Shown: in pieces, positions 4,127 to 38,351 of the stretch
Position numbering within the stretch: position 1 is the first letter of the stretch
How the letters are laid out: every line of letters begins with the position of its first letter
DNA from: Nitrospira sp.
GTDB lineage: Bacteria > Nitrospirota > Nitrospiria > Nitrospirales > Nitrospiraceae
Assembly: GCA_029865225.1 (NCBI GenBank)
Contig: JAOUHJ010000024.1
Coordinates: forward strand, 1-43,521
DNA: 43,521 nucleotides
Reading direction: 5' to 3'
Made by a program: the position numbers and the translations under genes
The notes under the pieces: model-generated
Seen by the model: the letters and a program-made list of their open reading frames with translations, nothing else
The model's database searches: none
Told to the model about the DNA's origin: nothing

Positions 4127-4288
4127 GATCGACTCGAGCAGGAACTCCGAAAACTTAAACGCCACGTCGCCGCATAATCGCAACGGGCTCAATGACGGTT
4201 CTTCAATCCCGCTTCGCTGAAATATTCCACTCCGCATCCCTACCGCACCGTGTGAGATCGCATCACTGGCCTCCAACTCTCCGGATTC

Positions 4289-13561: not shown

Positions 13562-13581
13562 CACACAGTCCTTTCTGCAGA

Positions 13582-17275: not shown

Positions 17276-17318
17276 ACGCAATCGCTCCGTGAGTGCTGCA
17301 AACTCCTGGTCTGCTTCT

Positions 17319-17774
17319 CTAGGCTCCGACGTTCTGCTTCAAGTCATAACTGGCCACTTCCGTTCCGCGCTTCCACTCGGCCTTGCGATAGTCCAGCGAG
17401 ATGGTCTCCGTCGGCTTGGTCTCGCCGCTGTGGAAGCCCACGCTCACATTGCTGATCTGGCAATCGTTCAGCGTCACCTTGAAATATTCTTTGTTACTGC
17501 CGTCTACGAAGGTGATGGTCGCTGTCTTAAACAGTTTTTTCTCGGCGCAGGCTTTAGAAATCGACGGACTGGATTGATCCATTTCCTTGACGATGACCGC
17601 CGGGGAGAAATTTGTGATACGGGCGTTCTTGCTGCTGTCCTCATCGAATTCTCCCGCCTGCGTAATGGAATAGGAGAGCGATTGAACAACAATTTGACCT
17701 TCGAACCCACTGGTCGTGGCTTTTCCCTTTAGGCCCATATCCAAAAAGCAATTCTCATTGACTCCCTGTGCCAT
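17319..17774 (-). CDS. hcp: Hcp/TssD inner-tube protein
   Basis: This 151-residue protein starts at ATG 17774 behind AAGGAGGA. It has the Hcp beta-barrel pattern: CFLDMGLKGKAT, EGQIVVQSLSYSITQ, SKNARITNFSPAVIVKEMD, SPSISKACAEKKLFKTATIT, and GETKPTETISLDYRKAEW near the end. Hcp hexamers stack to form the expelled tube and can carry small effectors in the lumen. It is the first gene of the second half-operon. The 301 bp upstream carry a sigma-54-type promoter at 17844-17859 and a shared 20-bp motif at 18000-18019, suggesting separate, high-level control, as expected for the most abundant T6SS subunit. Confidence 0.95.
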   Translation of the reverse strand: MAQGVNENCFLDMGLKGKATTSGFEGQIVVQSLSYSITQAGEFDEDSSKNARITNFSPAVIVKEMDQSSPSISKACAEKKLFKTATITFVDGSNKEYFKVTLNDCQISNVSVGFHSGETKPTETISLDYRKAEWKRGTEVASYDLKQNVGA

Positions 17775-17843
17775 ACTCGTCCTCCTTGAAATGAGTGTAG
17801 TGCGATTGTCTCCTCGATCTGATGATCGACATGCGTGCTACGA

Positions 17844-17859
17844 AGCAATCGGCATGCCA
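17844..17859 (-). promoter_or_regulatory. Sigma-54 (-24/-12) promoter of hcp
   Basis: On the minus strand the site reads TGGCATGCCGATTGCT. It has GG and GC separated by exactly 10 nt and matches TGGCAC-N5-TTGCW at all but one consensus base. Transcription would begin near 17833, leaving a leader of about 59 nt before the hcp ATG. Hcp operons in several T6SS-bearing bacteria are known to use sigma-54 and a bacterial enhancer-binding protein. Confidence 0.65.
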
Positions 17860-17999
17860 CCAGCGTACAAGAACCCCTGATGACCTCTTTCTGACACTAA
17901 GTACTTCCCACAGTGAAGAAATCTCCTGCTAGTATCCTCGCGAGACCAACCGGATTTCTGTTTAGTCGTCGCGCCATAAGTATCCAAAAGGATTCTCCC

Positions 18000-18019
18000 C
18001 GTATCTAAACCGATTCACC
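18000..18019 (-). promoter_or_regulatory. 20-bp motif upstream of hcp (candidate activator site)
   Basis: On the minus strand this reads AGGTGAATCGGTTTAGATAC, 19 of 20 identical to the two tandem copies at 31921-31961. It is 226 nt upstream of the hcp ATG and about 140 nt upstream of the -24 element, a normal distance for an enhancer-binding protein. A weaker partial match (TCTGTTTAG) lies on the plus strand at 17956-17964. The region 17775-18075 contains no gene. Confidence 0.6.
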
Positions 18020-18075
18020 TGCCCGTCTGTCTCGCTCCTCGGCACATCGAGACAGGTGCATGGCACACGTTGCCA

Positions 18076-19560
18076 TCACTTCGCCGGCGGAGGCAATTCA
18101 GCCACCAGCCGCAGGGAGATCGTAATCTCGTCCAGTTGGAAGTGCGGTTTCAGATACGACACGGCCTTATAGCATCCTGGCTTCCCAGGAATTTCCGAGA
18201 CTTCTATACGCGCCTCTTTCAGAGGATATTTGGCCTTTAACTCCTGACCAGCGTCCTCCGTGCTGATCACATAGTTCTTGATCCAGCGATTCAGGAAGTC
18301 CTCACAATCCTTTCTTGTCATAAAGCTGCCGATCTTATCCCGCATGATCGACTTCAAATAATGCGCAAACCGCGACATGGCCATCATGTACTGCAGCTGT
18401 GTCGAGAGCCGAGCGTTCGCAGTCGCCGCCGCAGTGTCGTACTTCTTTCCCTTCTGGGTTGATTGCGCGCCGAAGAAGGCGGCGAAGTCGGTCCCCTTAC
18501 AATGGACCAAGGGAATGAACCCAAGATCCGACAACTCCTTTTCCCGACGGTCGGTAATGGCGATTTCGGTCGGACACTTGAGGGCGATTTCCCCCTCGTC
18601 CGTCCGAAAGGTGTGGGTCGGCAACCCATCGACGCGCCCTCCCCCTTCTACGCCTCGAATGGCAGCACACCAGCCATACTTGGCGAAGGCATCGGTCAGC
18701 CTCGCGCCGAACGCATAGGCGGCATTGCCCCAGCAGTACTTACTGTGATCTTTGCCGTCCACGTCCTCTTTGAAGTCGAACGCCTCAACGGGAACCGTAT
18801 CCGGACCATAGGGCAACCGCATGAGCACATGGGGGAGGGTCAACCCGACGTACCGGGAATCTTCGGATTCTCGGAACGACTTCCACATGGCGTAATCGAC
18901 GGCCTCGAATTTTTTCGCCAGATCACGGGGGTTCGGCAGATCCGTGAACGTATCCAGACCAAGTAGGCCCGGTGCCGCAGCCGAAATAAATGGGGCATGG
19001 GCCGCAGCCGCGACATTGGAAAGCTTCTCTAACAGGGAAAAATCTTGGGGATGTTTTCCGAATTCATAGTCCCCGATCAACGCGCCATAGGGCGCACCGC
19101 CAAACGTCCCATATTCCTCTTCATAGACTTTCTTGAACAGGGCACTCTGGTCGAACTCGACCGCCTTCTCGAGGTCTTTCACGAGATCGTTTTTGCTGAC
19201 GTTCAGGACCCGAATCTTCATCGTGGTCGACGTCTCCGACTGCATCACCAGGTAATGGAGACCGCGCCAGGACCCTTCCAGTTTCTGGAAATCGGGCGCA
19301 TGCATGATGGCATTGAGTTGATCGGTGAGGAGGCGATCGATATCGGCCACACGAGCCTTGATCGTCGCCTCAACATCTTTGGACACGCGAAACGTCCCCT
19401 TGAGCGCTTCCTCCACGACCGTGGCGATCTGGCGTCTGGACTGTTCCCGCTCCCAATCGTTCTTGGCGATCTTGGTGACTTCCAGAATCTGATCGAGCGT
19501 GCCGCTTTCGACCGTTGCCGCCGCCGATTCCGCTTCTGCCTGTTTTGCCTCGTCAGCCAT
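18076..19560 (-). CDS. tssC: TssC large sheath protein
   Basis: The start is ATG 19560 behind AGGAGGG; the longer frame to 19668 shadows tssB. The 494-residue product has the TssC (VipB) hallmarks: LNAIMHAPDFQKLEGSWRGL, HYLVMQSETSTTMKIRVLNV, VYEEEYGTFGGAPYGALIGD, YEFGKHPQDFSLL, and AHAPFISAAAP. TssC pairs with TssB to build the contractile sheath; its N-terminal helix is the ClpV handle. The gene is the last of the first half-operon, before the 301-bp promoter gap of hcp. Confidence 0.96.
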   Translation of the reverse strand: MADEAKQAEAESAAATVESGTLDQILEVTKIAKNDWEREQSRRQIATVVEEALKGTFRVSKDVEATIKARVADIDRLLTDQLNAIMHAPDFQKLEGSWRGLHYLVMQSETSTTMKIRVLNVSKNDLVKDLEKAVEFDQSALFKKVYEEEYGTFGGAPYGALIGDYEFGKHPQDFSLLEKLSNVAAAAHAPFISAAAPGLLGLDTFTDLPNPRDLAKKFEAVDYAMWKSFRESEDSRYVGLTLPHVLMRLPYGPDTVPVEAFDFKEDVDGKDHSKYCWGNAAYAFGARLTDAFAKYGWCAAIRGVEGGGRVDGLPTHTFRTDEGEIALKCPTEIAITDRREKELSDLGFIPLVHCKGTDFAAFFGAQSTQKGKKYDTAAATANARLSTQLQYMMAMSRFAHYLKSIMRDKIGSFMTRKDCEDFLNRWIKNYVISTEDAGQELKAKYPLKEARIEVSEIPGKPGCYKAVSYLKPHFQLDEITISLRLVAELPPPAK

Positions 19561-20089
19561 TGGCACCCTCCTTGGTTCCTTCCGCAGAAACTCCGATTTC
19601 CTTCCCGATCTTTTGCTGCAACTCCGTGTTACTGAGGATCTCCTGGAGCTTGTCGGCCAGACTGTCATTGCCGTCCGTCTTGGCCAGCAATGCCGTGAGT
19701 TGCTGACGAATTTCCACGAGCTTCTTCAACGCGGGCACTTGATTGGCCACTGCCTCCGGCGAGAAATCATCCAAGTGGGTAAACTTCAGCTCCGCACCGA
19801 TCTTGCCTCCGTCTGGGCTGAGTTTATTCTCCACCTGATACGCCAGGCGCGGGGTGATGCCCTTCATCACATCGTTGAAATTATCCCGGTCGATCTCCAC
19901 GAATTTCCGCTTGGGGTCCTTGAGGGGGCCCAGCGGGGTTTCCGGCTTGCCCGAGAGATCCGCCATGACGCCAACCACGAACGGCAGCTCTTTCATCTCG
20001 ATGGCGCCTCCGGTTTCAACATCATAGGTAATCTGAACCCTTGGCGGCCTGACCCGGCTGAGCTTTTGCTGTGTACTTTCCCTCGCCAT
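19553..20089 (-). CDS. tssB: TssB small sheath protein
   Basis: This 178-residue protein begins MARESTQQKLSRVRPPRVQI, then TYDVETGGAIEMKELPFVVG and VMADLSGKP, the standard TssB (VipA) opening. It continues RKFVEIDRDNFNDVMKGITP and the LKFTHLDDFSPEAVANQVP block. TssB handshakes with TssC in the sheath. The C-terminal ~40 residues are charged and helical. Its 3' end overlaps the tssC start by 8 nt, so both are made in balanced amounts. It starts 30 nt after tssA. Confidence 0.95.
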   Translation of the reverse strand: MARESTQQKLSRVRPPRVQITYDVETGGAIEMKELPFVVGVMADLSGKPETPLGPLKDPKRKFVEIDRDNFNDVMKGITPRLAYQVENKLSPDGGKIGAELKFTHLDDFSPEAVANQVPALKKLVEIRQQLTALLAKTDGNDSLADKLQEILSNTELQQKIGKEIGVSAEGTKEGANG

Positions 20090-20119
20090 ACGTTTCCCCC
20101 CTTTTCGTCCGTGCGGTGA

Positions 20120-21244
20120 TTACGACTCTCTCGACGCGTCGGAGTCCTGCGTCAACCCCAACGTCTCTTTGACTGCACTCAACACACTTGCGTCCTTAAT
20201 CAACTCCTGTAACCACTCCTCTAACGGCATCTCCTGCCATCGCACCGCCCGCTGTACCAAATAGGGCACCGGGCTATGCGGTTCAGTTCGACGGAAAAAC
20301 TCAGCCACACGCTGCAGTTGCCTGATGGCATCCGCCCGCGTTCTCAGGTCTCCCGACACCGCAGATGACTCGGTCTGTGTTGTCGTCACAACAGACTCCT
20401 CCTGTGGGTGTTCCTGGACAGGATCTTGACGTAACCCCACCCCGCCACGCTTTCGGACCAGCTCATCCAACAGATCTCGGCAGCTTTCCATCATTTCCTG
20501 AAGCGGCCGAAGCGTAAATCCCTCCGCCCCATATTTCTCGGTGGCGATGCGGTTGAGCGATTGAAACGCATCCCATGCTTCACTCATCATGTCGCGGAGC
20601 GATGAGAAATGTGACAGCGGGGTGGCCGCAACCACACGATCGATTTTTTCACCTAATTGCGTCGCTTCATCCAGCGCGGCTTGCGCATGCCCTCGCTGCT
20701 CTTGTGTCTGTGCCGCCTGGACCGCCCCTTTCAATTTCTCGATCTCATCGTGCCCCTTGCCGTAGTCGTAGCAGGAATAGATCACCCCGCCAGACTGGTG
20801 CATGATCGGAACCGTCTGAATCGCTCGAGGCAGAATGGTATTTAAAGCTTCCAGTTTCGTGGCACGGGCATCCAGATCCCCGTCTTCCTCGATCGCCGGA
20901 AGAAGATCGTTCCAACATTTCTCATGGGCGAGCGTCATGACTCGCAGCCCATCGCGCAATCCGACAAACCCGTGTTTTCTGGTCAGTCCTTCGACCAACC
21001 AGACCATGACACCCAAATCCTTCCCTTCTTCGGTCAGAATCTTCGTCGACAGCTGAACGACCTTCTGCCAATCTGCGCTCTTCCCCTGGCTCTGGATCGG
21101 TCCATTAGTCACCGGGTCTTCGTGACGCATCGCGTCTTTGATGGCGCGGTACGTCGCCCCGTACTGCACGTTCGGGTCAGGCTTTGCGCCCTCTTTGAAC
21201 GGCCCTACCAAGAGCTCGCAATCGATCGTCGACGACAGTGCCAT
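20120..21244 (-). CDS. tssA: TssA, ImpA-domain sheath assembly protein
   Basis: This 374-residue protein carries the ImpA N-terminal domain in its first half: LVGPFKEGAKPDPNVQY, SADWQKVVQLSTKILTEEGK, DLGVMVWLVEGLTRKHGFVG and GLRDGL, then a WNDLLPAIEEDGDLDAR stretch. The C-terminal third holds RTRADAIRQLQRVAEFFRRT EPHSP-type text and WLQEL, common to short TssA proteins. TssA caps the growing tube and sheath and links them to the baseplate. It starts 3 nt after the tagJ stop, so the two are coupled. Confidence 0.9.
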   Translation of the reverse strand: MALSSTIDCELLVGPFKEGAKPDPNVQYGATYRAIKDAMRHEDPVTNGPIQSQGKSADWQKVVQLSTKILTEEGKDLGVMVWLVEGLTRKHGFVGLRDGLRVMTLAHEKCWNDLLPAIEEDGDLDARATKLEALNTILPRAIQTVPIMHQSGGVIYSCYDYGKGHDEIEKLKGAVQAAQTQEQRGHAQAALDEATQLGEKIDRVVAATPLSHFSSLRDMMSEAWDAFQSLNRIATEKYGAEGFTLRPLQEMMESCRDLLDELVRKRGGVGLRQDPVQEHPQEESVVTTTQTESSAVSGDLRTRADAIRQLQRVAEFFRRTEPHSPVPYLVQRAVRWQEMPLEEWLQELIKDASVLSAVKETLGLTQDSDASRES

Positions 21245-21247
21245 GGT

Positions 21248-22048
21248 TCAGTTCACTCCCTCGTGGTTAATCTGTATGTCGCGAATCTCCAGCAATGAAC
21301 ATTCCGCGTCGTCTACCAGGAACATCTTCAGCCCCAGGCCACCGACCAGACCTGCTCCGAGGTCGATCCATTCGGTGATCCGACCAAGGCGCACTTGCTC
21401 GTTATCGTGCGCATCACTCCCCGGATAGAGCGCAGGCAGATACACATCGCCCTGCTGCCCATCGTGGCACTCCACACGAGCAGGAACCCACAGCAGATCC
21501 CGGAGAAAGTGGGGAGGTGAAAGCTCCAGCATCTTGATCTGTTCCATCGGCAGCCACATGTAGGTGCCGTTGACGAAGACCTCCAGCACCTGTCCGAAGC
21601 GATCGTCCGAATCGGCAAGAGTCTTGAAGGCCGTTCCGTTCAGCGTGCCGGTGATCGGAGGTGTCAGGGATTTGGCCCGTGCGATAGCCTCTGCTGCCTG
21701 ATGAGCATCGCCCCGCTGCAAGCAGGCAATCGCCGTGAGGTAGTCTTTCGCATAGGCGGGAGGGGCTGCCATAAATTCGGGAGCCTTCCCCCCTGACAAA
21801 CACGTTCGCCGTGCAGCATCGGCTTGCAGGAGCTTTCGGTAAACTTCAACCCCGATCCCGGCTTTGTCATCCTGCGCACCCAGCACATCCAGTTGACGGG
21901 AAGCCCGTTCATGGGCACCGTCAAAACACAACAGCTCGAAGAGAAACGTACGAATCCGGAGATCGGTGGGATGCTGTTTGACTTCTTGATTCAGCTCAAG
22001 GATTGCAGCTGACAGTTGATTGGCATCAAGTAGTTCTTTGGCCTTCAT
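21248..22048 (-). CDS. tagJ: TagJ/ImpE accessory protein
   Basis: This 266-residue protein begins MKAKELLDANQLSAAILELN with a TPR-like repeat (QEVKQHPTDLRIRTFLFELL). The C-terminal half holds the ImpE block: DDRFGQVLEVFVNGTYMWLP, MEQIKMLELSPPHFLRDLLW and VYLPALYPGS. TagJ homologues bind TssB and ClpV and tune sheath disassembly. They are found only in some T6SS subtypes, usually those whose ClpV binding differs from the Vibrio type. It starts within the 3' end of tagF (23-nt overlap). Confidence 0.87.
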   Translation of the reverse strand: MKAKELLDANQLSAAILELNQEVKQHPTDLRIRTFLFELLCFDGAHERASRQLDVLGAQDDKAGIGVEVYRKLLQADAARRTCLSGGKAPEFMAAPPAYAKDYLTAIACLQRGDAHQAAEAIARAKSLTPPITGTLNGTAFKTLADSDDRFGQVLEVFVNGTYMWLPMEQIKMLELSPPHFLRDLLWVPARVECHDGQQGDVYLPALYPGSDAHDNEQVRLGRITEWIDLGAGLVGGLGLKMFLVDDAECSLLEIRDIQINHEGVN

Positions 22049-23015
22049 GTGACCCTCCTACGGAATCAAGATATTGCAGCAGAGACATATGCCCATCAGT
22101 ACCCGCGTACGTCGGACAGTCGACTGAACAACTCGCAACAGTCTCCTGGGCATCAGGCGGCCACACTCTCCCGTTTCCCCACGAGTCATCTCCGAGTTCT
22201 GGTGAGATAATGAATCTCGCCAAATTCGGGGATGGGCACCCCACAGAGACAAGAATACAGGGCGCAACCTTCGAGGGACCGCGATTCCAGAACGCTAGAG
22301 TTGTCGACAGGGGATTCGGCCTCGTCGCAGACCACCGTGCATGGTATTCCAACCAAAACGGTACGTCGTAGGTTTCTCCTATGCTCCCTTTCAATAAGGG
22401 ATGGCACCATCCCCAACCACTGACCTGGCTGCAGGATTTACTCGAAACGTGCCGCCCTGCATCGTTGGCTGGTTCAGTCGTGTCCTCGCCCTCGTCACCC
22501 AGACCGTTTCGAAACTCAGTGACGGTCGTGCGTGATAAATAGTCGTGAAACCCTGCCTCACCCCCCCCATCCCGGTCGACCTCGTTCTCGAGCAACTCCG
22601 CACGCGCGCGAAAAGCCTCCCAATCCAGATCCAGGCGAAGTTGATGCAGCAACTGTCTGGCTGTCTCGAGGAACAGCCGGCATTGCAAGGGAATCAGCCA
22701 GGGAGCCGGCGACACACGCCGACCCTCCAGGAGCAGAAACGTGAGAAACGGAAACGACCGCCCAGCTCGATCGCGACTGGCAAAGACGGCTCCACAGACG
22801 ACTCGCCCCTCTCCCTCCGGCACAAACAGGAAATTCCAAACATCGGCTTGAGACACGAGCGTCGGCCACTCGGATCCAGCCCGTGTCTTGGCATACTGAA
22901 TCCCACGCTCGAACCACTCGTCGAGTTCGCGCACTTCAGGTCCAGCGGCATGGAAACGGAGAAACTCTGGTGACACGGGGAGTTTTCCGTAATAGCCGCA
23001 CACCGCCTCAGGCAT
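22026..23015 (-). CDS. tagF: TagF-domain T6SS regulator
   Basis: This 329-residue protein shows the TagF (DUF2094) start CGYYGKLPVSPEFLRFHAAG, then LDEWFERGIQYAK, WNFLFVPEGEGRVVCGAVFA, and SRDRAGRSFPFLTF. TagF represses assembly post-translationally, in known systems by binding Fha, and is relieved by other cues. In this window the Fha partner is present, but no complete PpkA kinase or PppA phosphatase gene is seen. It starts 9 nt downstream of tssM. Confidence 0.85.
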   Translation of the reverse strand: MPEAVCGYYGKLPVSPEFLRFHAAGPEVRELDEWFERGIQYAKTRAGSEWPTLVSQADVWNFLFVPEGEGRVVCGAVFASRDRAGRSFPFLTFLLLEGRRVSPAPWLIPLQCRLFLETARQLLHQLRLDLDWEAFRARAELLENEVDRDGGGEAGFHDYLSRTTVTEFRNGLGDEGEDTTEPANDAGRHVSSKSCSQVSGWGWCHPLLKGSIGETYDVPFWLEYHARWSATRPNPLSTTLAFWNRGPSKVAPCILVSVGCPSPNLARFIISPELGDDSWGNGRVWPPDAQETVASCSVDCPTYAGTDGHMSLLQYLDSVGGSHEGQRTT

Positions 23016-23024
23016 GGCTCTCCT

Positions 23025-26000
23025 TCATAGATGCTCCACACACCGGAACTGCTCGAACAACCCCGGTCTGAACGGATTCTTATGAGTGGCCGTTCGCAGG
23101 TCATATTGCACCTTCACCGCTTGGCCATCCGCAGCAGGAAGGTCCCACTGCACGCGATATTGCGCGTCTCCCGCGACAGACGACACCCGTCCCGCTTCGA
23201 TGAGGCGGAAGAGTCCCCACAGGTCCTTCACTTCCCGCGTAATCCAGGTTCCGTTCATTTGGACTTGCAGCAACGCTCCGGCTGCCGGCGTAGGTCCCGG
23301 CCATTTCACCTCTTCCCATTCCTGCGGCCCATTCTGATATCGGAGTGCTTGTCCGCCCACTTCGAGACGAATCTCCGTAACAGACCGGACCCCACCGAGC
23401 ACCGGATGCGGATACACCTCAAACGAGATGCCAGGACTCATGCTGCCCCGTGGGAACAAGCTTTCTGAGAGCATCCTGGCATGGGTCAGGGACTCCACAA
23501 ACTCCTCGGAAAGGTTCATGCCGACGTTTGCCCACTGCTTCAGCTCCCAATGATCCGCACCTTCCACGATGAACGGCTTGAGTTCAGCTTGATAGAATTT
23601 CCACAGCAGACCGTTTTCGGGATGGAACACGTCCGACAAGTCCGCGATGGGCGCATCCCCACCGACCTGACGAAACGGGTAATGTCCTTCCACATTGCGC
23701 AGGCACGCAGGGTACACTTCCGCTTCCCACCGCTTGGCAGCCTCGGCTTTGGCCCGTTCCAGCACACCCCTCATCGTCATCATCCACGGTTCGCCCAGGA
23801 GTGGCGCAACGATCTCTCGTGTTTCCGGATCAAGCTTTTGCAACAAACCATCCGTCCCGTTCATGGCCTGAAGGATATCGTTGGGCTTCCCCGATACGAT
23901 GCTTTCAGCCAAAGCCTTCATATCCGCCGCCGGACTTTCCGCACGCAAAATCGGACGGACGGCTTGTTGGACTTTCCTGACATCGGTGAGGTACTTGATC
24001 AGCGGAGCCTCCTCTTTCGCATCCTTCGGAGCATGGAGTAGCCGATCCAGTCCTTTGAATCGAAGCGTGACCGAGCCTGAGAAATCATTGGGGTCGGCCA
24101 AGCGGCGAATCAGTTCTTCTGTATCCTTCACCGAACCACCGATAGCACTGCTTCCCTCGATACCGAGTTGCTGTTTGATCTTGCTCAAGATCCCTGTCGC
24201 CGTCTCCTGGAGCTTCGACAGCCCTTCAGGCTCAGGAACTGTGTTCTGCACGACCGCCTCGAACACCCGTTGAATGGGCGAATCACCGGACGCCAACAGA
24301 CTGAGTTCCTCATCGACATTACTCGGCGTCACAACGGGTTTCATGCGGAGCGAACGGAGAAATTCTCGCCAGTGACGAACGTAGTCTCGGAAATACTGCT
24401 GTTTGATTCCTTTATCAAGCTGGGCCACCTCGACTTCCGGTTCTCCGATAATCCAGCCTTCGTCTCCCGATTCTTCCAAGATTTTTGCGACACTGGCCTG
24501 AAACGGACCTTTCCACCCGGCCATCGTATAGACCCCTGGGACCTCATAGTCACTCGTAATCGTGCCTTGGAGAGGTCCCTGAAGCACGTGATCCACCGTG
24601 AATGGCTTCACTAGGTCTTCGGCTTCGCGTTTGCTGAGCGAATAGATACGCTGCATCCTCGGAACCTGCCTAAGCTGCTCCTGCACCTCTCGAACAAGTC
24701 GAACATCCAAGACCAACCGTTCGGCATGCTCTCTTGCTAAATAATGACTGTAGAGGAACATCTGCTTGAACACCCGCTGTTCAAGCTCCTCCGGAACCGG
24801 CTCCTCAGACACCATCGCCTTCAACCTGTCCCCCCAATACTCGTTTAACCAACGGTTCAGATACTGCGCTTTGAGGTGATGAGGATCGCCCAGCATCAGA
24901 TAGGCCTTGAGTAAGGAGTACGCCTCGTCATACTCTCCTCGAAGGGCTCCCGTCCCTTCGGATATCACCGTCATCTGTTTCAGACGTGCCTCCATCTCAC
25001 GCTTCGTCTCCGCCAAAAATAGTCGTGAGAAGTACCGCCCATACACTTCACCCACCTCTTCCCTCAGACGATAGCCTTGATAAAATTCAGCCAGATGCAG
25101 CGGAACACCCTGCTGTTCGATGTCGAGCAGTTCCTTGAACCGATCACCCAGTTCCCCGATGTACTCGATACTTTGCTGAAAGTGGTCAGGATCGAGCGCG
25201 AAGTCCGGTGGTTGAAGAGCGGCTGACAATGTAGAGTTCAACAGCCGCTTGTTGCCGATGAATGAAATCGAGAGCCCACCAATCGCCACCACCGCGAACA
25301 ACACTGAGATCGCCAATGCCCCCACCCGCAGATACCCACGCTGGCGAAACACCATGGAGGAGGGATTGACGAGATGTTGGTCCGGGAAAATAATGTCCAA
25401 GAACAATTCCTTGAGAAAATAGCTTTTGGGTTCCTTCGGCATGACGGACACCAGATTCGTGTCGGATAGGCCGGAAGCGCGACTGACCGCCCCAAGGATT
25501 CGATCGATCGGCGTTCCCTCCTGCGTGCCGCTCGTAAAATAGAATCCACGAAATAGCGGGCTCTCCTGGTACGCGTTGCCATGAAACAAGGTGTCAATGA
25601 ATCGTGTCAGTCGATCAGTGGCGGAGGCCATTTGAAGCGGAAAGCCGAAAATGTTGACTTTCTGGCTGCCTCGGGTCGTCGACATTCTCGGCAACCGGCG
25701 CTCATGGAGGACCGACAACAATCGCTCAAACTCTCGTTGAAATGATGCTGCCGGTGTCTGATTGCTACGGTCTGATTTTGCGAAGGTGCAGCCCCAGATG
25801 CGCTCTCGCTCGGTTCGATTCAGTTCCTCGAAGAATTCGACAAACCCTTGAACAAGGTCACACTTGGTAAACATGACATACACGGGGCACACCACGCCGA
25901 GCCGCTTGATGAGTTCCTCAATGCGCGCCCGTATCTGCTTGGCATGTGCTTGAACGTCTTCATCGCTCCCCTGAATCACGTCGGCGATAGAAATGGTGGC

Positions 26001-26657
26001 AATGACTCCGTTGAGAGGTTTCTGACCCCGATGCTTCCGAAGCAGGTCGAGGAATGCGAGCCACTCCTCCTGGTCTTCAGTCTGGGTGACATATCGACCT
26101 GCCGTATCCAGTAAGACTCCCGCGTTCGTAAACCACCAATCACAATTCCTCGTCCCCCCCAAACCCTGAAGTCCCTGCCCATCCCGACCCAACGCCGGGA
26201 ACTGGAGGCCAGAATGCCGAAGGGCCGTGCTTTTCCCCGATGCCGGCGGGCCGATGAACATATACCAAGGAAGCGAGTAGAGAGCCGATTTCCCGTTGAC
26301 CCCGTTCCCGAGTTTGGATTCTTTGAGTGCCGCAATTCCCTTTTCAAATTGAATGCGGACCGCTTCAATGTCTTCCCTTCTATCCGATCTCCCACGTTGA
26401 CTCTCTTTTCGTAGCGAGGCCTCCAGTCGTGCGGCTCGCTTTTGAGCCACCAGGTGCCGTACAACATAGACAGTCGCCCGCAGCACCACGAGTCCGATGA
26501 TGGCCTGAACCCGCGAATCGACCGACTCGAGTCCGATCCACGGGCCAGCAAACCACACCAGCGCCACAAGACACACGACGGCGAGTTCTGCAGCCAGTTG
26601 CGGCTGCCTCAAAAACGCGAGCACCGACGATCTGATCACAGCAAAGAGGCGTTTCAT
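23025..26657 (-). CDS. tssM: TssM (IcmF) inner-membrane complex protein
   Basis: The 1210-residue product has two N-terminal membrane segments (about 22-40 and 50-68) and a third near 440-463. Between them is a cytoplasmic nucleotide-binding domain with Walker A GPPASGKST (136-144) and NCDWWFTNAGVLLDTAGRY, the classic IcmF text. The long periplasmic part ends in the beta-rich FEVYPHPVLGGVRSVTEIRL region and a GPTPAAGALLQVQ segment, the TssJ-contacting C-terminus. TssM spans the envelope with TssL and TssJ. No peptidoglycan-binding domain is attached. Its ATG overlaps the tssL stop as ATGA. Confidence 0.96.
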   Translation of the reverse strand: MKRLFAVIRSSVLAFLRQPQLAAELAVVCLVALVWFAGPWIGLESVDSRVQAIIGLVVLRATVYVVRHLVAQKRAARLEASLRKESQRGRSDRREDIEAVRIQFEKGIAALKESKLGNGVNGKSALYSLPWYMFIGPPASGKSTALRHSGLQFPALGRDGQGLQGLGGTRNCDWWFTNAGVLLDTAGRYVTQTEDQEEWLAFLDLLRKHRGQKPLNGVIATISIADVIQGSDEDVQAHAKQIRARIEELIKRLGVVCPVYVMFTKCDLVQGFVEFFEELNRTERERIWGCTFAKSDRSNQTPAASFQREFERLLSVLHERRLPRMSTTRGSQKVNIFGFPLQMASATDRLTRFIDTLFHGNAYQESPLFRGFYFTSGTQEGTPIDRILGAVSRASGLSDTNLVSVMPKEPKSYFLKELFLDIIFPDQHLVNPSSMVFRQRGYLRVGALAISVLFAVVAIGGLSISFIGNKRLLNSTLSAALQPPDFALDPDHFQQSIEYIGELGDRFKELLDIEQQGVPLHLAEFYQGYRLREEVGEVYGRYFSRLFLAETKREMEARLKQMTVISEGTGALRGEYDEAYSLLKAYLMLGDPHHLKAQYLNRWLNEYWGDRLKAMVSEEPVPEELEQRVFKQMFLYSHYLAREHAERLVLDVRLVREVQEQLRQVPRMQRIYSLSKREAEDLVKPFTVDHVLQGPLQGTITSDYEVPGVYTMAGWKGPFQASVAKILEESGDEGWIIGEPEVEVAQLDKGIKQQYFRDYVRHWREFLRSLRMKPVVTPSNVDEELSLLASGDSPIQRVFEAVVQNTVPEPEGLSKLQETATGILSKIKQQLGIEGSSAIGGSVKDTEELIRRLADPNDFSGSVTLRFKGLDRLLHAPKDAKEEAPLIKYLTDVRKVQQAVRPILRAESPAADMKALAESIVSGKPNDILQAMNGTDGLLQKLDPETREIVAPLLGEPWMMTMRGVLERAKAEAAKRWEAEVYPACLRNVEGHYPFRQVGGDAPIADLSDVFHPENGLLWKFYQAELKPFIVEGADHWELKQWANVGMNLSEEFVESLTHARMLSESLFPRGSMSPGISFEVYPHPVLGGVRSVTEIRLEVGGQALRYQNGPQEWEEVKWPGPTPAAGALLQVQMNGTWITREVKDLWGLFRLIEAGRVSSVAGDAQYRVQWDLPAADGQAVKVQYDLRTATHKNPFRPGLFEQFRCVEHL

Positions 26658-27343
26658 ACGGCAGACTCCTGGAGGATCTTCTTCAGCTGGTCCAACACCT
26701 GACCAACATCCTGATTAATCACAAAGGCAAGCGCGAGATAGAAGAGCAAGACAATGCCGGCGCTTGTCGCCAATACCACCCAGGCGGGCAACTCACGTTT
26801 TACGAGTTCCATCAGCTCTTCTGGACGTCGCCCGTGAGGAGATAACTCCAGCGCATCCCCCCGCTTTGCTTGCACTTCTCTCGTCACATCTTCAATCAGT
26901 CCTCGCAATCGCTCCCGCTCATGCAAGCGATACTGGCCCTCGAACCCGAAGATCAGACACAGACCGTACACTTCCAGCAAGTTTGCATCGAGAGGAGATC
27001 CTCGCCTGATAGTATCCAGACGTCTAAAAAATCCCTCTCCGGCCACAAACTCCCCGAAGAAATCGTATTGGAGCGGTCGCGAGGCCCACTGTTCCCGGTA
27101 GGTCCATTGAGAGTTGATGATCATCTCATCGAGATACGCCGCAACGGCATAGCGCGCATGAGCCACCGTATCCGAAGGAATTCCGTTCTTCTTCGCAGCT
27201 TCGTCAGCCTGCTGAAAGAGATGGTGTAACCTCGTCCGAAGATGATCAGGACTCCCAATGTCTCTTGTCTCCTTGAGATAGGAGCCGAGGACCAATAGAT
27301 CGCTGAAGACTTCCGTGATGCGTTTTGTTCGCTCTTCCGACAC
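26654..27343 (-). CDS. tssL: TssL (DotU) inner-membrane protein, short form
   Basis: The start is GTG 27343, with GGAG 9 nt upstream; the product has 229 residues. The cytoplasmic domain has the DotU signatures: ARYAVAAYLDEMIINSQW, PLQYDFFGEFVAGEGFFRRL, and LEVYGLCLIFGFEGQYRLH. A single C-terminal membrane anchor (LPAWVVLATSAGIVLLFYLA, near 186-205) follows. The OmpA-like peptidoglycan-binding extension of long TssL proteins is absent, as is TagL, so anchoring to the wall must use another factor. It lies 13 nt after tssK. Confidence 0.94.
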   Translation of the reverse strand: MSEERTKRITEVFSDLLVLGSYLKETRDIGSPDHLRTRLHHLFQQADEAAKKNGIPSDTVAHARYAVAAYLDEMIINSQWTYREQWASRPLQYDFFGEFVAGEGFFRRLDTIRRGSPLDANLLEVYGLCLIFGFEGQYRLHERERLRGLIEDVTREVQAKRGDALELSPHGRRPEELMELVKRELPAWVVLATSAGIVLLFYLALAFVINQDVGQVLDQLKKILQESAV

Positions 27344-27356
27344 GTCTGGATCTCCT

Positions 27357-28697
27357 CTATTCTTTCACTGCGACCAGCTGGACACGGATGCTTTGGACAC
27401 TCTCCGGAATGTGTAGCGCCACAACCTGCGACTTCTTGATCTCCTCCCAAAAGACCCCCCGATCGTCCATTCGGAAGTACTGCGTTCCGTTTTTCATGGG
27501 GAGCGCGATCGGCGGACGAGGCGTATGGAACAGTTTGACGCCCGGCATGGCCGCGGCGACGATTTCTTTGAGTTTGCTGGGCGACCCGACCCTCACCTGA
27601 TTCGGCACGAGGTGACGGACCTGATCCTCTGACATGTCGCCTGAGGCCATGACAAAGAACTGCGCAGACGCGAAGAGTCGGCTCTCCGGCACACGGCCTA
27701 CCCACACATTGTCGCCGCTGCTCTCCAAGGGGATTGAGATATACCGAGTCGGTGTGACCCCCTCGACGATGGACCGAATGCGCTTGTCCAAGGCATCAAA
27801 GGTTCTACCCAAATTCTCGTGCTGATAGGCCGGAAGATCCGGCGACTCCCCAGGTGGAAGCAGTATCTGCAAGTGACCGGCAAGCCGAACCAAGGCGGTG
27901 TAGAGCGTCTCAGGATGGACGCGTTCGATCTGACTCAAGTGCTGCAGCACGGGCAAATGCGTCGACACGGCTGTGACCAGCGTGAATTTTCCGAGGTCCG
28001 TTCCAATCAGCTCCAGGACCCCGCGCTGGGCATCGGAGAAGGTCGCTCGTTTGGCAACCAGCAGTTCGATGAGTCCCCTCAAGAGTCGCAATAGATAGGG
28101 GGACGCGCTCACCCACACACAGGGCGGGATATACGTCTCCCGCAGTCCCACGGTGCCACTTGGGAGACGAACTACTTCACCAATCTTGATGGCCGCCGTG
28201 TCGGCGGTTTCTTCTCCGCTGAAGAAGATCCGCAGATTCTTCTTCGCCACGAGCACTTCACGAGGATTGTCACCCGTAGTGGTATCAATGACTTCGATGT
28301 GCTCCGCAAGAAATCGTGGCAATCGCGAGCCGGATTCCTTGCCCAGTTGGCAGGCCATACTGTCGGATCGCTCCACAGGAATTCCCAAAAAGACACTGAG
28401 ACTCTCCATCGCCGGTTGAAATAGCTCGGTAAACACCCGGGTCGACGGCGCCCCGTCTTCGTCCGGGATTTCGATCACCAGTCCATCCGGCAAGACGACA
28501 CAGCACTTCAGTAACGTGAGGCGCCCATTGGCCAGTCCGTCATGATCGATGTCGAGACTGGTCACGCCCCACGCAAAGGGATCATGAATTCTGAACCGAT
28601 CGGTGATCAGCCCTTCCGTATGCCTGTCCCATTGTTGAAAGTGCTGCGGAGTCAATAACAACCCCTCACTCCACACCACGCGTCGATTCATCGTCAT
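27357..28697 (-). CDS. tssK: TssK baseplate-membrane connector
   Basis: This 446-residue protein starts MTMNRRVVWSEGLLLTPQHF, then QQWDRHTEGLITDRFRIH, the usual TssK opening. Further marks are FELLEQ-type P.LRLLRGLIELLVAKRATF, LYTALVRLAGHLQILLPPGE, and FFVMASGDMSEDQ. TssK trimers link the baseplate wedge to TssL/TssM and resemble phage receptor-binding proteins. The ribosome binding site AGGAGGG is 14 nt from the ATG. It follows tssJ by 23 nt. Confidence 0.95.
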   Translation of the reverse strand: MTMNRRVVWSEGLLLTPQHFQQWDRHTEGLITDRFRIHDPFAWGVTSLDIDHDGLANGRLTLLKCCVVLPDGLVIEIPDEDGAPSTRVFTELFQPAMESLSVFLGIPVERSDSMACQLGKESGSRLPRFLAEHIEVIDTTTGDNPREVLVAKKNLRIFFSGEETADTAAIKIGEVVRLPSGTVGLRETYIPPCVWVSASPYLLRLLRGLIELLVAKRATFSDAQRGVLELIGTDLGKFTLVTAVSTHLPVLQHLSQIERVHPETLYTALVRLAGHLQILLPPGESPDLPAYQHENLGRTFDALDKRIRSIVEGVTPTRYISIPLESSGDNVWVGRVPESRLFASAQFFVMASGDMSEDQVRHLVPNQVRVGSPSKLKEIVAAAMPGVKLFHTPRPPIALPMKNGTQYFRMDDRGVFWEEIKKSQVVALHIPESVQSIRVQLVAVKE

Positions 28698-28720
28698 GGC
28701 AGTGCCGTCTTCCCTCCTCG

Positions 28721-29245
28721 TTAGTTGGCGACCTTAATCATGTTCTTATCGACCTTCACTTTGACCTTCGGCGTGAACGGATTGAGCGAGGACGATGTGG
28801 CTTCAGCCACCTGTCGCCACCCTTCCACATCTGGCTGCCGAAACAATGCCATCACACCGATATAGGCAGCCCCATGCTTCACATCGAGATCGATATACAA
28901 GTCGGCCTTTTTCTCTGGATGAACCATGAGTTCCTTCCGATCCAAGAGGTCGTCCTCGAGTACTTCCTTGTCGCCCTTCCAGAGGGCTTTAAACGTCGCC
29001 TGTTGGAATCGCTCTCGCTCCTTCAACTGATACACGCGCACCAGCACCGGCTGCGAGTCGCCGGCATCATTGAGATTGATCTTGTCCGTCGGCACCATCT
29101 GCACACGCCATTTCTTCGTCTCACTGCTGCAACCCATGCCAAGCAGCAGCACGAGCAGACACAGGACGCCGGTACTAGGAACGCGTCCTCGTTTTGTGAA
29201 CCGACAAATACCCTTTCGCAAAATAGGGAGCCAGGATCCGTTCAA
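28721..29245 (-). CDS. tssJ: TssJ outer-membrane lipoprotein
   Basis: The longest frame starts at TTG 29245, inside the end of the fha gene. The true start is uncertain, as a shorter non-ATG start before the signal peptide is possible. A hydrophobic signal (TGVLCLLVLLLGMGCSS) ends in a lipobox with Cys39. After it come DSQPVLVRVYQLKERERFQQ, FKALWKGDKEVL, DLLDRKELMVHPEKK, and AAYIGVMALFRQPDVEGWRQ, all TssJ (SciN) text. The lipoprotein sits in the outer membrane and binds the TssM C-terminus. The length is normal. Confidence 0.9.
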   Translation of the reverse strand: MNGSWLPILRKGICRFTKRGRVPSTGVLCLLVLLLGMGCSSETKKWRVQMVPTDKINLNDAGDSQPVLVRVYQLKERERFQQATFKALWKGDKEVLEDDLLDRKELMVHPEKKADLYIDLDVKHGAAYIGVMALFRQPDVEGWRQVAEATSSSLNPFTPKVKVKVDKNMIKVAN

Positions 29246-30437
29246 AGACTTTCACCTCCTCTTCGCACAGTTGTCGATGTGTGTCCTTATAGCGGCGCCA
29301 GGCAGCCGCCTCGGTACGAACCGTTCTGCCACCCAACAGGCCAAGGCCTTTCTCCTTCGATCGATTGCCTGTCCCTTTTTCCAACTTGTCGGGGTCTAAC
29401 TCTTTGAGTAGCCCGCGAATGCATTCCCGAAACCCAGCCATGAGCCCAAGCTGATGCACCGTGAGATCATGAAACGCCTCGGTGAGACTCGCCGTCGCTT
29501 GCTCATCCGAGAGTCCCTTGGACCTGGGATCCAGGAGAATACTGGCAATCTCCTCGGCGTCCTCTGCGGATTTGATAGGATTCGGTGTCCAAGCCAGGAT
29601 CCGCGTCGCTTCGACTTCGAACTCTTTTTGAAATGCTCTTCGCCCCCGCACAGCATCCGCCAACCCGGCACAGACGACTTGAAGTACGGCGGCCAGCTGG
29701 GACGCCAGTTGTTCCGAGTTGAGTGTGCTTCCGAACAAGGCCAGCTTTTCACCGACCCTGCTCGCAGCATCGTCAGTGAGCCACTTCCGGCCACGACTGA
29801 GCCGACGAGCCTGCCCGGATGCGACGTCGACGTTCGACACCGGTGTTGGTTTCTCCATCGCGACAGCATCACCGGTTGAGGAGCACAGAGCCGTCCGTAG
29901 AGACTGAATGGCAGCCCGTGCTCGGCCATCGTCATATCCATCAATGGCCCGACAGAGCACATGATCGAGGTACTGTTCCACATCGGTGTCCGATGCTGGG
30001 TCCCACTTTCCATAGGCTCGCTGCAGGAGATAGCGGAGCCGCTCAGAGTCGCTCGCTGGTCCCTCAGAGGATGAGCTTGTGCACGGGACATCCGCAGAAC
30101 CAGCCGGAGGCGTCGCCACCCCGGTGGCACATCGAAACAACAACTCATACGAGCCGACAGCGATCCGGTCACCGTCGTGTAGCGGATGCTCCTGGCTCGG
30201 GATAATTCGTGCTCCGTTGAGCATGGTTCCATTGGTACTTCCGACATCGATGAGGTTCCAGACGCCATGTTTCTCACGAAGTTCAGCATGTTTCGTGGAT
30301 ACCACCCGCGTGGGATCCTTCAACACACAGGTATTCCCCCCACCCCGCCCAATCGTGATTCGATGTTGATCGAGCGTTTGCTCCGCCGTTTGCTCCCGTC
30401 CATCTTCCACCCATTGGGTAATTAACTTGCAGTGCAT
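29175..30437 (-). CDS. fha: Fha/TagH, FHA-domain T6SS scaffold
   Basis: The preferred start is ATG 30437, just after the previous stop (TGACGGCATG); GTG 30461 would overlap that gene. The product is 420 residues. An FHA domain fills residues 20-100: RITIGRGGGNTCVLKD, VVSTKHAELRE, IDVGSTNGTMLNGARII. The C-terminal 200 residues carry the VasC/ImpI-type domain: LTEAFHDLTVHQLGLMAGFR, ECIRGLLKELDPDKLE and FERILAPYFAKGYLS. FHA domains read phosphothreonine; Fha proteins switch on assembly and are opposed by TagF. A partner kinase is not obvious here except for the odd gene upstream. Confidence 0.87.
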   Translation of the reverse strand: MHCKLITQWVEDGREQTAEQTLDQHRITIGRGGGNTCVLKDPTRVVSTKHAELREKHGVWNLIDVGSTNGTMLNGARIIPSQEHPLHDGDRIAVGSYELLFRCATGVATPPAGSADVPCTSSSSEGPASDSERLRYLLQRAYGKWDPASDTDVEQYLDHVLCRAIDGYDDGRARAAIQSLRTALCSSTGDAVAMEKPTPVSNVDVASGQARRLSRGRKWLTDDAASRVGEKLALFGSTLNSEQLASQLAAVLQVVCAGLADAVRGRRAFQKEFEVEATRILAWTPNPIKSAEDAEEIASILLDPRSKGLSDEQATASLTEAFHDLTVHQLGLMAGFRECIRGLLKELDPDKLEKGTGNRSKEKGLGLLGGRTVRTEAAAWRRYKDTHRQLCEEEVKVFERILAPYFAKGYLSVHKTRTRS

Positions 30438-30441
30438 GCCG

Positions 30442-31689
30442 TCACGAGACACAGACCGCACGGCGGTTCATTGCGTGCTCGCACACACGAAGAATCATCG
30501 CATCACGCTGGTCGGCTTCGAATAGCTCAGTGCGCGCCCGCCTCGCCAGCACCTCAAGCTCCCGTGCTAACCCTCGCGCGGGACTCGGATCGTACGTCGC
30601 CGCCTCACTCGCATAACTAAATCCCTGAATAGTGGAGCAGGCTCGCAACACGGCCACCACCGCATCCCACCAGATGGCCTCAGGAATCTGAGCTTCGGCC
30701 TTGAAACAGTGCGTCGATTCGCTCACTCGATCTTTCACCCGTACATACCTGGCGTAATGATCGTCTTCTTCAAGCCCCTGGACCACCGGCTCTAACCCCT
30801 GGACGATCGAAGGAAGATATTCGCAGGCTCGTGTCCAACACTGCTCATCCGATCCGAGGAGCGCCCGTAACAACAACATGCCGCAACTGTAAACATCATC
30901 GGCGGGTGACACAGCACGATACACCGCAGCTTCCACCGACGAACGCACCGTACCAACCGCACCAGTCACCAACTTCCATTCTTCGAGCGACAGGCAGTCG
31001 GTCCGACCGGTGACGATAATGCCGCGCTCCGGCGATTCAATTTTTCTGGCCCAGAGGTCCATACATCTTCCCCGCTGCTCTCCGATCGGGAGTGAGAGTC
31101 GAAACACATCATGATCGGAGAACTCTTCGGCTTGGAGGCCATCGGCGATCACATGCACACGAATCAACCCCCTCATATGGCCCGGATCATCTTCCGGTAT
31201 CGGATCTATTGATTGAACAAGCGCTGTGACCGAGATCATCTTGCCCATGGGCCAATCCCTCACTCGAGGTGACACATAAGCAAGGTTCATACTTGCAGGG
31301 AGCATCGTGAGGCTGGATGCCATTTCGGCAGGCATATTTTCAAACACCACATGATGCTCGGACTCCCTTGCTACCAGCGACACGGTGGCGTTCCAGTACA
31401 TCGGTAACATGCTCGTACGACGCTCTGGAAACTGGACAATGACCTGTTCTGGATCGATCATCCCACGAGCACTATGGATACGTTCATGTTCATCGGCCAG
31501 GTTGGAGCAGAGTGCATGCATGCCACTGACTTTCAAACACCATACCTCAAGCAATCGTTTTTCCGGGTCGGCCTCGAAAAAGCACCGATCAGAAACCATG
31601 GCATTAGAGCGCGACCGATCGCGCCAGGAGCCATCGAGCAGACCGCAAAACTCATCCCAGGTGAGCGATGAGGGTCCTGTGTCGGACAT
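30442..31689 (-). CDS. Unknown T6SS-linked protein with a kinase-like segment
   Basis: The first gene of the T6SS run encodes 415 residues that I do not recognise as a whole. The first ~230 residues are soluble and mixed in structure (DEFCGLLDGSWRDRSRSNAM, MNLAYVSPRVRDWPMGKM). Near residues 259-276, AVSPADDVYSCGMLLLRALL resembles subdomain IX of eukaryotic-type protein kinases (sDVYSLGxLLyeLL). No glycine loop, VAIK Lys, HRD or DFG motif is visible, so at best it is a kinase relic. Its position directly before fha, where kinase or FHA partners are often encoded, makes a regulatory or scaffolding role plausible. The stop is 4 nt before the fha start. Confidence 0.5.
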   Translation of the reverse strand: MSDTGPSSLTWDEFCGLLDGSWRDRSRSNAMVSDRCFFEADPEKRLLEVWCLKVSGMHALCSNLADEHERIHSARGMIDPEQVIVQFPERRTSMLPMYWNATVSLVARESEHHVVFENMPAEMASSLTMLPASMNLAYVSPRVRDWPMGKMISVTALVQSIDPIPEDDPGHMRGLIRVHVIADGLQAEEFSDHDVFRLSLPIGEQRGRCMDLWARKIESPERGIIVTGRTDCLSLEEWKLVTGAVGTVRSSVEAAVYRAVSPADDVYSCGMLLLRALLGSDEQCWTRACEYLPSIVQGLEPVVQGLEEDDHYARYVRVKDRVSESTHCFKAEAQIPEAIWWDAVVAVLRACSTIQGFSYASEAATYDPSPARGLARELEVLARRARTELFEADQRDAMILRVCEHAMNRRAVCVS

Positions 31690-31729
31690 AGGATTAAAGC
31701 CTCAAGGTTCAGCAATCACAAAACAGAGA

Positions 31730-31745
31730 AGCAAATCCGATACCG
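31730..31745 (-). promoter_or_regulatory. Possible sigma-54 promoter of the first T6SS half-operon
   Basis: On the minus strand the site reads CGGTATCGGATTTGCT. It has GG-N10-GC spacing and a perfect TTGCT -12 element, but a poor -24 box (CGGTAT for TGGCAC). Transcription would start near 31719, about 30 nt before the ATG at 31689. Support comes mainly from the paired motif upstream at 31921-31961 and from the stronger hcp promoter. Confidence 0.4.
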
Positions 31746-31920
31746 GTGTGCCCCGCACAGGGTCCAAGATTCTGATTGGAGAATTTCACAATGCTGACTA
31801 CGTAGACGAAATGCGGCGCCAGACTAAGCGTTCTCATGAGAGAAAGCAAGATGACGTGAGATCATTCTCACGTATTTTTTCACTGAGCGCGGTACTTGTT
31901 TCGTCGCTCAAGTATGAGCA

Positions 31921-31961
31921 AGGTGAATCTGTTTAGATACCAGGTGAATCTGTTTAGATAC
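31921..31961 (+). promoter_or_regulatory. Two tandem copies of the 20-bp motif
   Basis: AGGTGAATCTGTTTAGATAC occurs at 31921-31940 and again, identical, at 31942-31961. The 21-bp period puts both on the same face of the helix. Each contains an imperfect inverted repeat (GAATCT-GTTT-AGATAC). They lie 232-272 nt upstream of the first T6SS gene and also upstream of the divergent gene at 32301. The orientation relative to the T6SS genes is opposite to that of the hcp copy. The rest of 31690-32300 shows no gene. Confidence 0.6.
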
Positions 31962-32214
31962 TATCGTCGGACGCCAAACCCTCCTCGTTTTTCTCAATCA
32001 ACATCAGCGAGTCGTTACAAAACCACTGGATTCCCGGTTTCTGTCCAAGTGAAACCACGTAGCATAGATTTTGCTTTGTGGTTTGCCCAAGCGATCGAGA
32101 GATCAAGGAAACAAGAGCTCTCGCTTCTGCTTAACGTAGGAGACACTAGGTCTATTTTAGACTAGGGCCACTTGGGGAAGATCATTAACACACATGTCCC
32201 TATTCTGAAGAGGG

Positions 32215-32300: not shown

Positions 32301-33662
32301 ATGAAGAAGACATGGTCGATCGGGAGAAAGTTGTGGTTTGTCCTTCTCCTCCTGGTGATTGTTTACTCCTCACCAGCGCAGGCACAGGTTCTCGATCAGC
32401 AGATCAATGCGCTGCTCGCCAATAATTGCGCTAACTTGGGAACTGGCGGGCCCCCGACTCCTGACCTCACCGGGCTCGGCCCGAATCTCACCGCTCTCTG
32501 TCAGACACCGATCACAGGGGGAGCAAGTTCAGCGGGTGGTGGTGCTGCTTCTCTGCAGGGATCCACTGCGTCGATCTTGAACCGCACTGTGCTGGGACGG
32601 CTGGAAGAGTTACGACAGGAAGATCGTGACGAATCAACTACACAACCATCCACTTTCCGCTTCAATCCTCTTGGCTTGATGGCCATGGCGGGCATGGGCA
32701 ACCTCAATGTGTCATCGCCGTTCTACGCAGCCACGGCGATTAGTGGAGGATCCGGAACTTCGGTGGTCATGAACAGCCCCAGTCGCTGGAAGGGACTGGG
32801 CTTCTTTGCCTCGGGCCTGGTCGAATCGCTGAATCGAGACGTCACCACCTTTCAGGATGGGTACAAATCCAGGATTTTTGGTGCGTCGGCTGGTGTGGAC
32901 TACCGCATCACCAGGCGGTTTGTCGTGGGAGTTGTAGGAAACTTTTCCAATACCGACGGAGATTTCAGGACTGGTGGCGGGACGTTCAGCACCAACTCCT
33001 ACGGTGGTCTTGCCTTCGCCCAGATCCTCCCGACCGATAAGACTTTTATTCAGGTCACTGGCGGCTACACGCGCAACAACTACTTGATCTCCCGACTCGC
33101 CACAGCCGAGATCAGCGGTGTGATTCCCCCTCGAACCGTAAATGCATTCGCTTCCAGCAACTCCAATGGTGATGTGGCAAGCGCTGGGTTTCTCGCCGGG
33201 TATGACCATCAAATCGGCCGATATCTCGTCGGGCCACGCGTGGGGGTCAACTATAGTCAAACTCATATCGGCAATTATGCGGAAGATGGTGGCAGCGGAA
33301 TCGGCTTGCAGTATGACGCGCAAACCATTCACTCGCTCCAAAGCATCGCCGGCATTCAAGCTTCGACGGTCTACAGCACGGGATTCGGCGTCCTTGTTCA
33401 TCAGATCAATGCCGACTACATCCACGAGTTCGCGAACGACCAGCGGCATATCACCGTGCAATTCACGGAAGACCTGCGGACGAATCCCACGCGATTTGCC
33501 TTCCAAAATGAGGCGCCTGCGCGCAACTACGCCTACGTGGGAACGGGACTGGTTGCCGTGCTGCCTAATGGCTGGCAGCCGTTTGTCAATTTCCGAGCCA
33601 TGGTAGGCAACAGCCAATTCGATAACTACACAGGCACGTTTGGGCTACGCATCGAGCTGTAA
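32301..33662 (+). CDS. Autotransporter-type outer-membrane beta-barrel protein
   Basis: The start is ATG 32301, with GAGG 9 nt upstream; the product has 453 residues. A signal peptide (KLWFVLLLLVIVYSSPAQAQ) is probably cut after residue 28. A short Gly/Ser/Pro-rich stretch follows, and from about residue 160 a beta-rich domain of alternating strands (FGASAGVDYRITRRFVVGVV, GYDHQIGRYLVGPRVGVNYS, YAYVGTGLVAVLPNGWQPFV) ending GTFGLRIEL. This matches the autotransporter beta-domain. The passenger is almost absent, so it is likely a pore or barrel rather than a secreted adhesin. It is divergent from the T6SS operon. Confidence 0.77.
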   Translation: MKKTWSIGRKLWFVLLLLVIVYSSPAQAQVLDQQINALLANNCANLGTGGPPTPDLTGLGPNLTALCQTPITGGASSAGGGAASLQGSTASILNRTVLGRLEELRQEDRDESTTQPSTFRFNPLGLMAMAGMGNLNVSSPFYAATAISGGSGTSVVMNSPSRWKGLGFFASGLVESLNRDVTTFQDGYKSRIFGASAGVDYRITRRFVVGVVGNFSNTDGDFRTGGGTFSTNSYGGLAFAQILPTDKTFIQVTGGYTRNNYLISRLATAEISGVIPPRTVNAFASSNSNGDVASAGFLAGYDHQIGRYLVGPRVGVNYSQTHIGNYAEDGGSGIGLQYDAQTIHSLQSIAGIQASTVYSTGFGVLVHQINADYIHEFANDQRHITVQFTEDLRTNPTRFAFQNEAPARNYAYVGTGLVAVLPNGWQPFVNFRAMVGNSQFDNYTGTFGLRIEL

Positions 33663-38331: not shown

Positions 38332-38351
38332 TTCCTCTCTATCGAGAGGAA
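38332..38351. terminator. Perfect hairpin between convergent genes
   Basis: TTCCTCTC (38332-38339) and GAGAGGAA (38344-38351) form an 8-bp perfect stem with a TATC loop. It lies between the stop of the plus-strand gene at 38308 and overlaps the stop of the minus-strand gene at 38339. It has no flanking T runs, so it may be a weak bidirectional terminator. Confidence 0.4.

Follow-up and report, generated by a model that had tools for sequence, protein, structure and literature searches.

The nearest described parallel to the elements reported here is the PrsK-PrsR/PEP-CTERM regulon of Proteobacteria, in which a short upstream motif, sometimes repeated, stands at a fixed interval ahead of a -24/-12 box and is scattered before many exported-protein genes, with the kinase and the NtrC-type regulator tied to it by phylogenetic profile (Haft 2006, PMC1569441). 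Motif 1 of the PrsR regulon has 17 nt and ends in TTTACA, and its spacer averages 63 nt (PMC1569441). The hcp promoters of T6SS and orphan islands are driven by RpoN and Sfa2 (and VasH), and both activators are encoded inside T6SS clusters and largely T6SS-directed (PMC8855297). By our literature search, few papers deal with sigma-54 regulation in Nitrospira, bacteria of key importance in nitrite and ammonia oxidation, and the sole functional hint found for the Nitrospira T6SS was that the cluster of Nitrospira marina rises under low oxygen (PMC8115632). No description of the motif treated below, including one with RpoN or enhancer-binding context, was found in this search.

The window, meaning the whole stretch of 43,521 nucleotides analysed here (contig JAOUHJ010000024.1 of Nitrospira sp.), carries the 20-mer AGGTGAATCTGTTTAGATAC at 31921-31940 and 31942-31961 on the plus strand and AGGTGAATCGGTTTAGATAC at 18001-18020 on the minus strand. 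With at most 3 mismatches allowed, 3 matches were obtained in the window and 0 in 100 shuffles (chance expectation 0), which confirmed the repeated 20-bp motif of the preliminary description; its coordinates were right for the copies at 31921-31961 and off by one for the minus-strand copy, placed at 18000-18019, while its distances to the first genes hold (31689 to 31921, 232 nt; 17774 to 18001, 227 nt). When the genome was scanned at the same tolerance, exact copies were found in the window only, together with three copies of 3 mismatches. The preliminary description had overlooked a degenerate dyad beside the minus-strand copy (Table 1). The unit of the motif is a 16-bp dyad, GWATC-N6-GATWC, which forms a tandem pair with a 21-bp period at both loci, and the exact dyads in the whole window are these four only. 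The 20-mer has the same strand as the T6SS genes at hcp and the opposite strand at the other locus, which matters little because the site is the dyad. As for the helical phasing claimed earlier, 21 bp is indeed the commonest spacing noted, but the orthologous autotransporter promoters use 23 or 24 bp, so exact phasing is not essential.

Table 1. Dyads, promoter-like sites and genes at the two loci of the window
Feature	Position	Strand	Remark
Distal dyad of hcp pair, GAATCGGTTTAGATAC	18001-18016	-	Core of the 20-mer at 18001-18020
Proximal degenerate dyad of hcp pair, GAATCCTTTTGGATAC	17980-17995	-	21 bp from distal dyad
Sigma-54 -24/-12 promoter, GTGGCATGCCGATTGCT	17844-17860	-	120 bp downstream of left pair, before hcp
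hcp (TssD), 151 aa	17319-17774	-	First gene of left half-operon
gp25-type baseplate protein (TssE)	16436-17281	-	After hcp, 37-nt gap; presumed cotranscribed
VgrG	8554-10812	-	Later gene of left half-operon
First dyad of right pair, GAATCTGTTTAGATAC	31925-31940	+	Core of the 20-mer
Second dyad of right pair, GAATCTGTTTAGATAC	31946-31961	+	21-bp period
Probable sigma-54 promoter, GTAGCATAGATTTTGCT	32059-32075	+	AG for GG in -24 element; 98-99 bp from pair
Autotransporter beta-domain protein	32301-33662	+	Most likely target of right pair
PKD-domain protein	33708-35864	+	Second gene of right operon; follows autotransporter in G016 and G018 too
776-aa protein	35978-38308	+	Third gene of right operon; 69% identical in G016
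Weaker -24/-12-like site toward T6SS first gene, CCGGTATCGGATTTGCT	31730-31746	-	Gap 179
First gene of other T6SS half-operon, 415 aa, no Pfam match	30442-31689	-	Probably not under right pair

The dyad GWATC-N6-GATWC had 64 matches in the own genome of the window and only 4 for a reversed-pattern control, and about a dozen 21-bp pairs were present there (15 places at up to 3 mismatches, 1 in the control). Pairs were detected in 53 of the 79 genomes of the same genus, with up to 17 in each, and the reversed control gave 0 in all 79; at the level of the family, 118 of 175 genomes and 14 of 22 genera had them (control 0). The sites are diverged and mostly intergenic, and are not copies of a mobile repeat. 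Genes beside the pairs in the own genome encode a FadL-type outer-membrane protein, an outer-membrane autotransporter, a multicopper-oxidase (NirK-like) protein, an LPP20-type lipoprotein, an FHA/transglycosylase protein, a repeat protein and Hcp. Such a list agrees with the broader picture of sigma-54 as governing the exterior of the bacterial cell (PMC3162934).

A total of 42 nonredundant pairs were scored for -24/-12 boxes, which were counted at a score of at least 10. An outward-facing box at 60-140 bp was found for 24 of the 42, against 2 with an inward-facing box and 2 with one at 220-300 bp, so the dyads lie upstream of -24/-12 promoters facing away from them, as at hcp. The aligned consensus of the pair dyads was TGWATC-N6-GATWCA. 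The set distance to the -24/-12 boxes, together with a candidate regulator on another contig, supports the preliminary description in its proposal that the motif looks like a binding site for a sigma-54 enhancer-binding protein whose gene lies elsewhere. The pair is real and widespread, a probable sigma-54 activating element of an ordinary kind that has apparently not been described.

The own genome contains 23 strong sigma-54 activators. The best candidate among them, and the probable one, is a pair of kinase-linked NtrC-type response regulators on contig C13 (L100:2728-4158 and 12559-13998). Both paralogs have REC, sigma-54 activation AAA and HTH_8 (Fis-type HTH) domains, each gene is directly downstream of a histidine kinase gene, and their C-terminal 53 residues, the DNA-binding region, are identical. 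The domain architecture and the paired dyad upstream sites are like those of the NtrC family. The NtrC site is of the GCACC/GGTGC type, whereas the dyad letters here are not, and the C13 regulators scored 411 for the NtrC equivalog, under its cut-off of 558.6. With PrsK-PrsR the same logic of motif, spacer, -24/-12 box, kinase and NtrC-type regulator is shared, but the motif here is a GWATC-N6-GATWC pair with a spacer of about 60-140 bp instead of the 17-nt TTTACA motif, and the scores of 395-398 bits to TIGR02915 (PrsR) are below the cut-off of 502.6, which places the C13 regulators outside PrsR. Unlike Sfa2 and VasH, the candidate is a two-component regulator encoded outside the T6SS clusters, whose targets would be mainly non-T6SS.

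The C13-type regulator was counted as present when the C-terminal HTH query reached at least 80 bits, which was the case in 39 of the 79 same-genus genomes. At least three pairs were present in 37 of these 39 genomes and in 5 of the 40 without it (Fisher 1e-14, a statistic which ignores kinship). The five exceptions were G013, G024, G046, G057 and G059, and G024 carries a fragment of the candidate with a stop; G071 has the candidate and zero pairs. In neighbourhoods of up to about 10 kb on each side of the gene, pairs were found near the C13-type gene in 16 of 20 cases and around a universal control EBP in 0 of 20 (Fisher 1.5e-7, again ignoring kinship, and with orthologous sites recurring among the linkage cases). 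At least two GAATC-type halves were present in 36 of 51 sites where the candidate is present and in 1 of 32 in other genera, and each window dyad holds one GAATC-type half. Around L185-L190, which hold remoter Nitrospira/Nitrospirae relatives of the regulator, no tandem pair was found. The relatives that carry names assign the family of genomes to Nitrospira.

The explanation which we favour, and hold with reasonable though not full confidence, is that the pairs are upstream activating sites of the C13-type sigma-54 activator, the left one serving hcp and the right one serving the autotransporter operon. As deduced from sequence, two dimers of the NtrC-type response regulator are predicted to bind each dyad pair side by side, and the activator, once phosphorylated by the neighbouring histidine kinase, would reach the sigma-54 RNA polymerase some 60-140 bp downstream, where promoter opening would follow. 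The left pair would thereby activate hcp and probably the tssEFG-clpV-vgrG half-operon, and the right pair the divergent autotransporter-PKD-776aa operon, the extents of both operons being presumptive. Such an activator would probably switch on sigma-54-driven surface and secreted-protein genes.

It is unlikely that the window sites belong to a different sigma-54 activator, be it the C12 paralog or whichever regulator reads the GTATC-type pairs found across the family. In genus g14 each genome has 1-9 pairs, many of GTATC type, without a C13-type regulator, while the LQRTYL recognition region is common to the C12-type paralog, whose locus has its own 17-bp-spaced pairs; on the other side, the GAATC-type half in each window dyad belongs to the class tied to the C13 type, the presence of the C12 paralog predicts 21-bp pairs poorly, and the linkage test favours the C13 type. 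Pairs made almost wholly of GTATC/GATAC halves are common in a genus that lacks the C13-type regulator (other genera of the family, e.g. G095-G123), so that one or more further activators recognising a similar site are to be expected. Pairs with 17-bp spacing were observed at L099:6664-6696 and 7632-7664, L101:4313-4345 and L098:4029-4061, next to genes of TonB-dependent receptors or multicopper oxidases, two of them with a -24/-12 box 173 bp away, and this suggests a second spacing class that may be read by another activator (C12). We tentatively propose, at somewhat less than even confidence, that the Nitrospiraceae have an undescribed family-wide sigma-54 network. Its paralogous two-component activators would recognise different versions of a single tandem dyad code (half-site GAATC or GTATC, spacing 17 or 21-24), each governing its own group of genes for cell-surface and secreted proteins, and a gene such as hcp would join by gaining a site.

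Returning to the C13-type activator, its action at the left pair would likely be on hcp, from which the gene order leftward is tssE, tssF, tssG, ClpV and VgrG. Another sigma-54 box, TGGCACACGTTGC at 18060-18090, was read by eye and dismissed for its wrong spacing. No pair was present in the tssC-hcp interval of G016 and G010, and the contig of G001 ends before hcp. Since the window Hcp is only about 42% identical to the Hcp of the T6SS relatives, compared with 56-82% for most neighbouring T6SS proteins, hcp and its promoter may have been replaced as one unit in the window lineage. In another species (G068), hcp has a pair and, 105 bp away, the near-perfect -24/-12 box ATGGCACCAGCCTTGCT; the 19.5 kb examined around it showed no T6SS cluster. 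At L047 and L052, sites occur near the other Hcp type but outside hcp promoters, and these were set aside.

The right pair is located between the first gene of the other T6SS half-operon and the divergent autotransporter gene. The autotransporter orthologs in G016, G018 and G012 have a pair and a conserved AGCAT-N5-TTGCT upstream, with AGCATCGCTCTTGCT at a gap of 104-105 in these three genomes and AGCATAGATTTTGCT at a gap of 98-99 in the window. Neither G018 nor G012 gave a match to the T6SS first gene of the window. The T6SS of G016 is followed first by an autotransporter copy that lacks a pair and next by another that has one upstream, after which the PKD, 776-aa and caspase-type genes come as in the window; the copies adjoining the T6SS in G016, G010 and G001 all lack the pair. 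Because the pair follows the orthologs of this autotransporter while the T6SS-adjacent copies are without it, the right pair most likely belongs to the autotransporter operon and not to the T6SS first gene. That the right promoter has AG where GG is expected at -24 speaks against the C13 explanation, as does the lack of a clear box at 18 of the 42 pairs scored. A sigma-54-like promoter with this AG is kept in four species (window 32059-32075; L268, L269, L272). The T6SS-autotransporter locus is also accompanied by a caspase-domain/Sel1-repeat gene, at 38339-40309 in the window (L265, L266), which is 80-82% identical in relatives and so as conserved as the T6SS core proteins.

The preliminary description had read the motif as the site of a dedicated T6SS activator upstream of both half-operons. 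That such an activator co-activates both of them, perhaps with the right pair acting in two directions, seems improbable to us, even with the similar distances to both first genes, the independent pair and promoter at the hcp of G068, and the weak -24/-12-like site directed at the first gene of that half-operon at 31689. The pair fronts many unrelated genes across genus and family, with a FadL-like porin, a multicopper oxidase and an autotransporter among its targets, so "dedicated" does not apply, and the G068 hcp itself lies outside any T6SS cluster in the stretch examined. "Both half-operons" fails as well, since the right pair and its promoter are kept with the autotransporter in three relatives, two of them without a match to the T6SS first gene. 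The weak T6SS-facing site was not seen in the T6SS relatives, so conservation gives no support to a two-way role of the right pair. Loss of the motif in relatives that retain the same operons had been named at the outset as the sign against the reading, and the pair is missing from those T6SS promoters of G016, G010 and G001 that were open to examination; by that sign a T6SS-conserved site is refuted. The T6SS-dedicated reading is thus wrong in scope and correct for hcp at most. Much the least probable is a reading of the dyads as sites for a transcription factor outside the sigma-54 system, or as a repeat that plays no part in regulation. Although a convincing -24/-12 box is missing from the expected place at 18 of the 42 pairs and two pairs are near IS-type transposase genes, the strong outward bias and fixed distance to the boxes, the diverged and intergenic sites, unlike those of a mobile repeat, and the linkage to a sigma-54 activator gene all stand against it.

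If the C13-type activator is the reader of the pairs, the hcp half-operon could answer to a general regulator of surface genes in one lineage while in relatives it does not. The right pair is also a warning that a site in a divergent intergenic region should not simply be credited to the more famous neighbour. The pair would provide a readable cis code with a named candidate activator, by which the target set could be listed from sequence. Some single loci may be mentioned. A pair at L111:3999-4035 is upstream of a NirK-like multicopper protein gene, giving a possible tie between the regulon and nitrogen oxide metabolism. The repeat protein at L106:3902-4609 (GVHVNSGPPGFVNGGGHANFDPASRFNLGDVGRA repeats, no Pfam match) is behind a 22-bp-spaced pair and could be a peptide precursor, and a gene for an SpvB/TcdB-like protein (L107:1-4008) is 207 bp from a dyad at 4215-4230. 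At L112:1563-2042, a pair and a near-perfect -24/-12 box (GTGGCACTAAGTTTGCT) are aimed at about 300 nt without a called ORF, which run toward the 3' end of an activator gene and might contain a small RNA or a small protein gene.
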